A stretch of DNA of 38,208 nucleotides from Candidatus Absconditabacterales bacterium (GTDB taxonomy: Bacteria; Patescibacteriota; Gracilibacteria; Absconditabacterales; Absconditicoccaceae): NCBI GenBank assembly GCA_937930555.1, contig CALHCH010000081.1, positions 1 through 38,208 on the forward strand, in the 5' to 3' direction. The position numbers and the translations under genes are program-made. Shown here piece after piece: positions 22,946 to 29,570 of this stretch. How positions within the stretch are numbered: the first letter of the stretch is position 1; each line of letters starts with the position of its first letter. Below the pieces are notes generated by a model that did not search any database, was not told the DNA's origin, and saw nothing but the letters and a program-made list of their open reading frames with translations.

Positions 22946-22961
22946 GATAAAATTTATAAAC

Positions 22962-22995
22962 AAAAAACTTCTCACTCGACAGTGAGAAGTTTTTT
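22962..22995 (+). terminator. Strong bidirectional intrinsic terminator
   Basis: A 15-bp stem aaaaaacttctcact/agtgagaagtttttt with loop cgac. It serves the SLH-thioredoxin gene on the plus strand and the DUF2188 gene on the minus strand. Confidence 0.93.
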
Positions 22996-23011
22996 GTTGT
23001 TTTGAAAAATA

Positions 23012-23245
23012 CTATCTTCTATCTCTTGGCGGAAAGGGATCTCTGCCATATGAATTACTTTGAGATATTCTTCAATTCTTATTTTGAATTTTTAATTCTG
23101 ATTTGTGATTTCTTGCTATCTCTCTCGCTCTATCAATTGCATCAGACTTAATATCAAGATGTGCAGAATCTCTAGATGATCACGACTTGTGAATTCTCCA
23201 TCATCCATTTTCCTTTGGCGATACCCAAACTTGTCATCTTGCCAT
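23012..23245 (-). CDS. DUF2188 family protein, 77 aa
   Basis: Small conserved protein of unknown function. Motifs: VWVSPKENGGWRIHKSGSS, SDAIDRAREIARNHKSELKI and GRISQSNSYGRDPFPPRD; the SYGxDPFPP end and SELxIHxxxGRI pattern are characteristic of DUF2188. Four or more glycines are UGA, hence no long frame in the standard code. Length is typical. Downstream is the strong terminator at 22962-22995; upstream, 28 bases away, ends the next minus gene, so both may share a transcript. Confidence 0.85.
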
Positions 23246-26919: not shown

Positions 26920-28719
26920 CTACAACATCAAATATCATCTCTGAGAAGCTGGCACCGCCAAGACGTCATTCACTATACAATCAAAATCACACAATGGATC
27001 CACGCTTCATACTGGGATAGTCTGCACCAAGCGCAATCGAGCAATTACTCACTTAATTTTGTTGATATATACCGGAGGCACAAATCGTTTGGACTCCAAA
27101 GCGGTGATCATTGCTTGGAGTGAATTGGCCAACCCTGCAGGAGAAGATCTATCAAGAGAGATATCTCATATAAGAGTGCTAGATATAGGAGCAAAGGTAT
27201 TGGTAAGCTGTACAAGTCCATTACTAGATGCAGTGGTATTGCCGTGAGCATAGTTTGTTACCACAGCGCGCACACTACTCATTAGTCATCATACATTGGT
27301 TGCTCATTGCAACATTGCGAGATCTGTGCCTCATACCACTCTTTTTTGGGGGACTTGAGGGGCAGTATCGGGCAGTGTAGGCTCAGCTTGCAAGCTCTCT
27401 CACTCGACTTGTGTATCTTCCTGGATGAGCTCAACCAATTCTTGAGGAACACTAGCAATTGGTGCAGTATTTGGTGTAGCTATATCGTCGTTGGTCTTGG
27501 TATCTTGATCAAGATCCAATGATGTATCGATATCATCGGGAGGCAAAATAGGCTGCACACCTCTCACAATAGCATCAGATCCAGCATCAATCTCACTCAA
27601 ATCTTGTTTGACTTCATCAGTATCTTGGTTTTTTTCAATAGTTGATTCTCATTGTTTATCAGGAGCCTGAGCCAGGATAGTAGATTTTGGAGTAGGGCCG
27701 ACAGTGTCAGTAGCGGCTCAGCTTGTGTCTACGATAGCAGGATCTGGCTGTATAGTATATGATATAGAGATATCTTCTTTGAGAGTTGCTGCTAGCTCTT
27801 GAGCTTGCTCATCATTCAATACTATCTGAGGATCTACTGCCACGATATCGGCGATAGTTATCTCACCATTGATAGATGCGGTTTGCTGTGTATCTAGCTG
27901 AGTGACTACCGATTCTTCTTGGATCACTCTAGTGAGAGTAAGCTCTGCACCAGTGTTTTCTATGAGCTGTTTGCCATCATCTTGGGTAGTGATCGTCACA
28001 TCTATCTCACCATCATCGGTATTGGAGCTGATTTCAAGATCTGGAGTCTTTATTACCACTTGGACAGACTTTTTCGGGATATTAATTTTTTGTGTGGGTA
28101 ATGTCGACGATGTTGGCGATGTTGACGTCGGACTTGCTGATGGAGTAGGACTTTCCTCCACTCTCTGTTCTGCCACATCTTCTACAGGATCCATAGACTT
28201 GAGCTCTACAAATTCACCAGAAATCATATTGATCACATAGATATCCCCTACCTTCTCAACCTCAAACTCGGCAGGACCAACAATCTTGGCCTGCACGCCA
28301 TCTTGTACAGAAAACGTCATCTCTGCTCACTCCAACAACAATACCTTGTCAGAACTCACAAGACTATCCGTCTCCTTGATCTCACCATTGCTCGTGATGG
28401 TCACCCCTCATACCGTCTGTATGATAGTCCCGATTTCATCTGCATACGTAAGCGTCTGAGCAGGATCAGCCTTGAATGTAATAAGCCCATCATCAGCTCT
28501 CCACTCCCCAGAATTTTGTCAACCAAAACTACTAAAATACAATATCCCCAACAAACTAATAGCAACTAACGAAAGTGTCGCTACTCTCGAATAATTAGTC
28601 ACCCTAGAAAAGAATCATTTTTGAGATTTTTTTGCTTCAAAACGACGAAAAATCAGCTCTTTGGTCTCAGAGCTGAGCTGGGTAGATTGTATATCTTGTA
28701 AATAGTCTGTAAACTTCAT
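26920..28719 (-). CDS. FecR-like single-pass membrane protein with long acidic low-complexity tail, 599 aa
   Basis: The first about 40 residues are cytoplasmic (MKFTDYLQDIQSTQLSSETK), like anti-sigma regions. One membrane helix follows (YSRVATLSLVAISLLGILYF), then a FecR-type beta domain (residues about 75-150: TYADEIGTIIQTVGGVTITS, SDKVLLLEGAEMTFSV, AKIVGPAEFEVEKVGD). The remaining about 440 residues are Pro/Ser/Thr- and Asp/Glu-rich, with a folded-looking end containing two cysteines. FecR proteins normally signal through an ECF sigma factor; none is adjacent. Eight or more UGA glycines confirm the frame. It may be a surface sensor or scaffold. Confidence 0.8.
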
Positions 28720-28790
28720 TGGTTGGGTAAGTGATTTGTTAGGTGATATAATTTTGATTTGTTGCTAGTTGTACGAATCAACTGGACATA

Positions 28791-28811
28791 TGTGACAAGA
28801 TATTTGACACA
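28791..28811. promoter_or_regulatory. Operator-like inverted repeat upstream of the FecR-like gene
   Basis: tgtgacaagatatttgacaca has arms TGTGnCAA/TTGnCACA, the layout of a CRP/FNR-type dimer site. It lies 72 bases upstream of the start codon. No cognate regulator is visible in the window, so this is suggestive only. Confidence 0.35.
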
Positions 28812-28831
28812 TTTTTGATAATGTGTTATTG

Positions 28832-28861
28832 AAAAATGTGGTGCTAGATATCTAGCACCAC
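28832..28861 (-). terminator. Perfect 24-bp palindrome plus T run: terminator of the candidate ncRNA
   Basis: gtggtgctagat/atctagcaccac is a perfect palindrome (28838-28861), followed on the minus strand by A-T5. It is one of the strongest hairpins of the window and ends the RNA starting near 29125. Confidence 0.85.
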
Positions 28862-29125
28862 GTGTTGCTTAGAGCATTGATTATACACAGTATATAGTAG
28901 GCTGATACAATAATAACAAAACACATTAGTGCGCTTCGCTTGTATTTGCATGTCCTCGCTTTAGTGCCATTACGCAATATACCATGCCACAATACTATGT
29001 GGGGCGCAACCGCCCTTCGAGTCACCACCGCAATATATGAACCATATAGATTTAATACTGTAAAAATGAGGACTCTTAATCCGCCTTATCAATGAACTTC
29101 AAACAACTCTTACATAAAAAGTGTT
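28832..29125 (-). ncRNA. Candidate novel non-coding RNA, about 295 nt
   Basis: A sigma70-type promoter (29132-29160) and a strong terminator (28832-28861) bracket a stretch with no coding frame longer than about 15 codons. The RNA ends can pair: GTTGTTT near the 5' end with AAGCAAC just before the terminator, and GTCCTC with GAGGAC further in. Internal hairpins include GGGC-GGTTG-CGCCC (as GGGCGGTTGCGCCC) and CCACA-TAGTAT-TGTGG. I looked for and did not find signatures of tmRNA, RNase P RNA, SRP RNA or a rod-like 6S RNA. Confidence 0.6.
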
Positions 29126-29131
29126 CAGTTT

Positions 29132-29160
29132 TTTATACTCAATACCACACAATAAGTCAA
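29132..29160 (-). promoter_or_regulatory. Promoter of the candidate ncRNA
   Basis: Minus strand -35 TTGACT (29155-29160), 17-bp spacer, -10 TATAAA (29132-29137). Predicted start near 29125. No start codon follows in a usable frame. Confidence 0.7.
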
Positions 29161-29398
29161 TATAAATTTTAGAAAAAGAAAGACCTCACTCAAAAAGAGA
29201 AAGGTCGACATCTGTAATGTTATGTTGATAGATAAGATCTATCGTCCGAGCTCGCTTTTGCGACTTGTGTGGATAGATCCACTCGGGATTAAAAAGATTT
29301 TTGTTGATACCACTAGGTATCAGTTCCGACATTGCTTGATGCAATAGATTGGGCGGTTGCCGCTCGGATATATGTTTTTTGTGTAGAGTGTATATGAG

Positions 29399-29475
29399 AA
29401 GTGTTTGGGAATCGAACCCAATGATTTCTCATCGGGACCCCCGAGATGGGGTATGCCACAAACTCATCATCTATA
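29399..29475 (-). other. tRNA-like remnant with a clear T arm
   Basis: The minus strand shows TTGGG-TTCGATT-CCCAA, a normal T arm, but the acceptor halves do not pair well, no D arm is evident, and the anticodon region forms CCCC-ATCTC-GGGG or CGGG-GGT-CCCG instead of a 5-bp/7-nt hairpin. It may be a decayed tRNA or part of another structured RNA that extends to about 29220 (several hairpins lie there). It lies just past two intact tRNA genes. Confidence 0.3.
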
Positions 29476-29570
29476 TAGTTAAAATTGAAGTGATTTTCAA
29501 GAGATGTTAATATATGCCTGCAAACAGTTATATAGCAAACAAAAAAAATCTGTAACGAAACAGATCTTAC

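Follow-up and report, generated by a model that had tools for sequence, protein, structure and literature searches.

Small RNAs encoded in the intergenic regions of bacteria form a general class of elements that carry their own promoter and intrinsic terminator and are poorly conserved between genera. The stretch of DNA analyzed here (38,208 nt, referred to as the window) contains a unit on the minus strand, designated the candidate RNA, that resembles this class in size, in having a promoter and a terminator of its own, in not coding for protein, and in its poor conservation between genera. It differs from the described intergenic small RNAs in that it comes from a recoded genome known from its assembly only, and is a candidate by sequence. 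We favor, with moderate confidence, the interpretation that the unit, about 290 nt long and on the minus strand, forms a small RNA gene of its own that is specific to this lineage, reaching from a promoter at 29160–29132 to a terminator at 28861–28838.

The window corresponds to contig 81, one of 89 in a genome that totals 1,206,404 bases and is 85.5% complete. TGA is read as glycine (NCBI table 25) in this genome: long frames were visible only under that reading, and in 12 gene-like frames TGA made up 2.5% of the codons. No Shine-Dalgarno sequence was consistent across these 12 frames (by eye). The genus comprises five genomes, namely that of the window and four congeners (G001 to G004), of which G001 is 65% complete. 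Orthologous proteins among the congeners were 30 to 46% identical. The relatives searched were 118 genomes, 49 genomes of the family and 353 genomes of the class. At the gathering cut-offs, Rfam gave three tRNAs in the window and no other family. The features of the locus are collected in the table.

Table. Features of the locus in the order of transcription on the minus strand (coordinates are those of the window)
Feature	Position	Strand	Basis or remarks
T-loop RNA, promoter region TCTCTTGAAAA	29470..29504	-	identical in four genomes
T-loop RNA, conserved 5′ module	29394..29454	-	C-rich/G-rich hairpin, then T-loop hairpin; helix counted by script
T-loop RNA, variable 3′ part	29165..29393	-	strongly structured, z -5.6 and -5.1
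Candidate RNA, promoter TTGACT-N17-TATAAA	29132..29160	-	TTGACW-N16-18-TATAAW search
Candidate RNA, body with multi-branched predicted fold	28862..29125	-	codon usage, fold, homologue searches
Candidate RNA, intrinsic terminator (24-bp perfect palindrome and A-T5)	28832..28861	-	terminator scan
Downstream gene, own promoter TTGTCACA...TCGTAC	28770..28799	-	after the terminator of the candidate RNA
Downstream gene, 599 aa (table 25), no Pfam match	26920..28719	-	orthologues in G002, G003, G004

The TTGACW-N16-18-TATAAW search gave a single match on both strands of the window, against a mean of 0.067 expected from 30 dinucleotide shuffles. A simple promoter scan misses this site, the TATAAA being without the final T. 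Transcription would be expected to start near 29125. The terminator palindrome (28838–28861) was the only perfect palindrome of at least 16 bp in the window. The core pattern of this palindrome also matched 11 stretches in viral contigs, which were judged to be chance. The two elements, taken as sequence matches, lie on the same strand and in the correct order, and they exceed chance. The near-consensus promoter and the 24-bp perfect palindrome with a T run, on which the preliminary description was built, were therefore both present, the former being unique in the window and the latter followed by A-T5 on the minus strand.

A cmscan search of 28700–29570, with E values up to 10, gave seven matches, each weak and below the cut-off, with 0.35 as the lowest E value and none to tmRNA, RNase P RNA, 6S RNA or SRP RNA. 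The candidate RNA matches no Rfam family. The statement that the conventional housekeeping RNAs do not fit was thus borne out. The further option in the preliminary description, a divergent tmRNA, RNase P RNA or 6S RNA, was rejected on the basis of the Rfam searches and of those in the genome itself, as follows.

RNase P RNA (RF00010) is similar to the candidate RNA in its length of about 300 nt and in the end pairing that had been proposed for the latter. It was not found in the candidate stretch, and differs in that the genome carries it elsewhere, on contig 17, where the full-length model scored 99.7 bits against a cut-off of 100. 6S RNA (RF00013) is like the candidate RNA as a stable non-coding RNA; it gave no match in the stretch or in the window genome. 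Matches resembling 6S RNA were present below the cut-off of 46.4 bits in G002 (L062, 37.5 bits) and G003 (L063, 32.4 bits), at other places. The 10-mers common to the candidate locus and the 6S-like locus of G003 did not turn out to be a copy of the palindrome. SRP RNA (RF00169) had no match in the stretch or anywhere in the window genome.

The candidate RNA differs from tmRNA (RF00023) in having no tRNA-like part, and neither Rfam nor ARAGORN detected a tmRNA in the stretch. The search for tmRNA in the window genome gave three matches, all overlapping tRNA genes, and found no tmRNA gene. In the family, tmRNA was above the cut-off in 28 of 40 genomes, and ARAGORN confirmed it in the three genomes examined, G001 among them. 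The tmRNA gene of G002 (L039, at the end of contig 1) was cut off by the contig end and adjoins a recombinase-looking frame (by eye). G000, G003 and G004 yielded no tmRNA, perhaps likewise because of breakage at contig ends.

Searches for homologues of the candidate RNA returned little beyond itself. At the DNA level, three of the 118 relatives were hit at E <= 0.001 (the sequence itself and stretches of 23 and 37 nt), and three of the 49 family genomes at E <= 0.01 (again itself and two short stretches). The 353 class genomes gave the sequence itself alone at E <= 0.0001. The short matches in G006, G079 and G005 (22 to 38 nt) were judged to be chance; the one in G079 sits within a ComF-like frame (by eye). 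A covariance model built from the one sequence (R1) was run against the 49 family genomes under strict filters and recovered only its source, so that the covariance search suggested in the preliminary description yielded no second member. There was no match in the phage and plasmid collections. At least two members with compensatory changes, as expected of a conserved family, were not found in these searches.

Because no homologue was found, selection on the candidate RNA cannot be shown. These negative results argue only weakly for absence: the T-loop RNA (see below) also shares just short identical blocks between congeners, and orthologous proteins have diverged to the extent given above. 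A non-coding unit of unknown family, as it was first described, fits the evidence; its designation as a new family goes beyond the evidence, no second member having been found.

The whole candidate unit had a folding energy of -91.3 kcal/mol (z -4.1), and this z score was largely the contribution of the terminator. With the terminator removed, the minus strand gave z -2.16, a value that 4 of 200 shuffles equalled or bettered, and the plus strand z +0.44. In a scan of 508 segments of 150 nt, the segment containing the terminator (28801–28950, minus) ranked second, and the adjacent one (28951–29100, minus) ranked 364th with z +0.27. About 8 to 11% of the 508 segments scored as low as the fold without the terminator. 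The duplex formed by the two ends (-10.3 kcal/mol) was equalled by 166 of 2000 mononucleotide shuffles, and the pairing of the ends put forward earlier is unremarkable. Because of these ranks and the shuffle-matched end pairing, the predicted folding outside the terminator lends the unit only weak support.

The most stable fold in the same scan (z -9.8) was on the minus strand at 22951–23100. It is a long hairpin with A-T flanks, and is probably a two-way terminator.

The modest fold once the terminator is removed, the lack of conservation in any relative searched, and the presence of other material at the same spot in G002 would all be expected of a remnant, whether of a decayed gene or of leftover intergenic DNA, that retains its promoter and terminator and yields a functionless product. 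On the other hand, the promoter and the terminator are both near-perfect and rightly oriented, and the body is richer in G+C (0.38) than its two flanks (0.26 and 0.31). We regard a remnant as possible, if doubtful.

According to the preferred interpretation of a separate small RNA gene, the unit would be transcribed from its promoter to its terminator, and the non-coding product would most likely act through base pairing to other RNAs. Pairing is suggested rather than a catalytic or protein-assembled housekeeping role, because outside the terminator the RNA folds only modestly and shows no conserved core.

The region had been described as without ORFs, which appears to have rested on the standard code. 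Under table 25, three frames cross it: 166 aa (29470–28970, minus), 58 aa (29028–28852, minus) and 71 aa (28940–29155, plus). The codon-usage scores of the first two were -0.237 and -0.250, respectively, at about the median of 198 non-coding stretches (-0.258), and those of the 12 gene-like frames ranged from 0.046 to 0.330. The 71-aa frame scored -0.026, slightly above the 95% quantile of the null (-0.052) and below every gene-like frame. The 166-aa frame had no Pfam match, and a search of 59 genomes at E <= 0.1 returned itself and seven others, of which the highest-scoring reached 18 bits across 48 residues. Open frames are therefore present, contrary to the first description, and they do not look coding. 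By codon usage the unit has no protein-coding frame, and a coding reading under table 25 was unsupported by the Pfam, homologue, codon-usage and viral-contig searches.

The 58-aa frame deserves separate mention, since the unit might be the mRNA of a small membrane protein. The frame is open throughout from a GTG start, and in its translation a hydrophobic segment comes after a basic one. Lack of a Shine-Dalgarno sequence would not count against it, given the gene-like frames without a consistent one. Its codon usage is that of non-coding DNA, it had no relative in the viral contigs, and its stop codon falls within the terminator stem. Moreover, a frame of this size would often be expected where TAA and TAG alone stop translation. 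We consider this protein unlikely.

Directly upstream of the candidate RNA lies a separate putative RNA unit on the minus strand (about 29504–29165), the T-loop RNA, which the preliminary description had not flagged. It is a better supported find than the candidate RNA itself. In the window, a -10 box (TATATA) was seen by eye 17 nt past TTGAAA, and across four genomes a -10-like box lies 16 or 17 nt past it, with the C-rich/G-rich hairpin and then the T-loop hairpin coming next in each. The T-loop hairpin, GGTTCGATTCC, has a loop like that of the tRNA T-arm. In the window it consists of an inner stem (TTGGG/CCCAA), the loop TTCGATT, and an outer helix of 7 bp (ATGAGAA/TTCTCAT).

The inner stem was fully paired in all four genomes (TTGGG/CCCAA twice, TGTGG/CCACA and GTTGG/CCAAC). 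The outer helix, which was counted by script and is left unaligned in alignment A5, was 7, 5, 5 and 6 bp long in differing sequences, and was equalled by 4, 115, 124 and 35 of 3000 flank shuffles, respectively. The four members thus keep the helix in differing sequence. When the longer transcripts of G003 and G002 were folded freely, the T-loop hairpin was not chosen, which would count either against the hairpin or against a plain energy model. With its terminator removed, the window copy gave z -5.1. Its 3′ end is a terminator-like hairpin (GACCT...AGGTC) followed by a T-rich run. The terminator scan listed the terminators of G002 and G003; those of G004 and the window, unlisted by the scan, were recognized by eye and from the folds.

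The T-loop RNA pattern occurred once per genome in 4 of the 49 family genomes, all of them in the genus of the window (L036, 2521–2717; L037, 2426–2785; L038, complement of about 250–400; and the window). It was absent from the fifth member of the genus, G001, and from the 44 other family genomes. A longer version of the pattern, searched in 84,980 species genomes, matched nine stretches, three of them in the congeners and the other six overlapping tRNA genes; it matched none in the viral contigs. No Rfam family was found for the window copy.

Likeness to tmRNA was confined to the T-loop RNA and its T-arm. It differs from tmRNA in that the T-arm is near the 5′ end and in its length, which is about 115 to 320 nt among the congeners. 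A split or permuted tmRNA, made up of the T-loop unit and the candidate unit, was considered since the window genome showed no tmRNA. It was ruled out: the T-loop unit of G004 is only about 115 nt long, the candidate unit has no tRNA-like part, and G002 carries a T-loop RNA besides an ordinary tmRNA 3′ end (by eye).

The T-loop RNA sits upstream of the 599-aa gene or its orthologue in the window, G002, G003 and G004. In G003 and G004, the promoter of this gene comes almost immediately after the T-loop RNA terminator. In G002, the two are separated by a frame of 102 aa on the opposite strand. In the window it is the candidate RNA that lies there, making two putative promoter-terminator units in tandem. 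The candidate RNA was absent from the corresponding site of the three congeners. From this four-genome arrangement, therefore, it is either an addition in the lineage of the window or a loss in the other congeners, and not a leader. Of the elements at this locus, the T-loop RNA is probably the older.

The TGTCACA and CGTA elements of the downstream gene's promoter were identical in the four genomes. This promoter looks like an alternative sigma factor site. The 599-aa protein is reminiscent, judged by eye, of FecR-like anti-sigma regulators, but Pfam gave no match.

That the candidate unit is a leader or attenuator of this gene, as the common strand and a terminator about 120 nt ahead of the start codon might suggest, is barely credible, because the gene keeps its own conserved promoter between that terminator and the start codon, and the three congeners carry the gene without the candidate RNA.

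The separate small RNA gene that we prefer might also be part of a two-RNA system, in which the genus-specific T-loop RNA and the newly gained candidate RNA would pair and control the downstream gene or something near translation. The candidate RNA (29015–29006) is complementary to the T-loop RNA (29360–29351) over 10 nt, with GUUG and CAAC in predicted hairpin loops. A match of this length was reached by 29 of 300 shuffles, and the energy of the whole duplex by 6 of 300. Pairing between the candidate RNA and the 5′ part of the downstream gene was equalled by 108 of 300. The GUUG/CAAC complementarity is suggestive and not enough to build on, and we consider such a system very unlikely.

In the part of the literature covered by our search, nothing on point turned up on small RNAs of recoded candidate phyla, which seem hardly to have been described. 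The candidate RNA alone would be an ordinary kind of element. The T-loop RNA, with one site per genome and a fold kept rather than a sequence, may represent a new RNA family of small size. Its case indicates that sequence searches alone can miss RNA genes in these bacteria.
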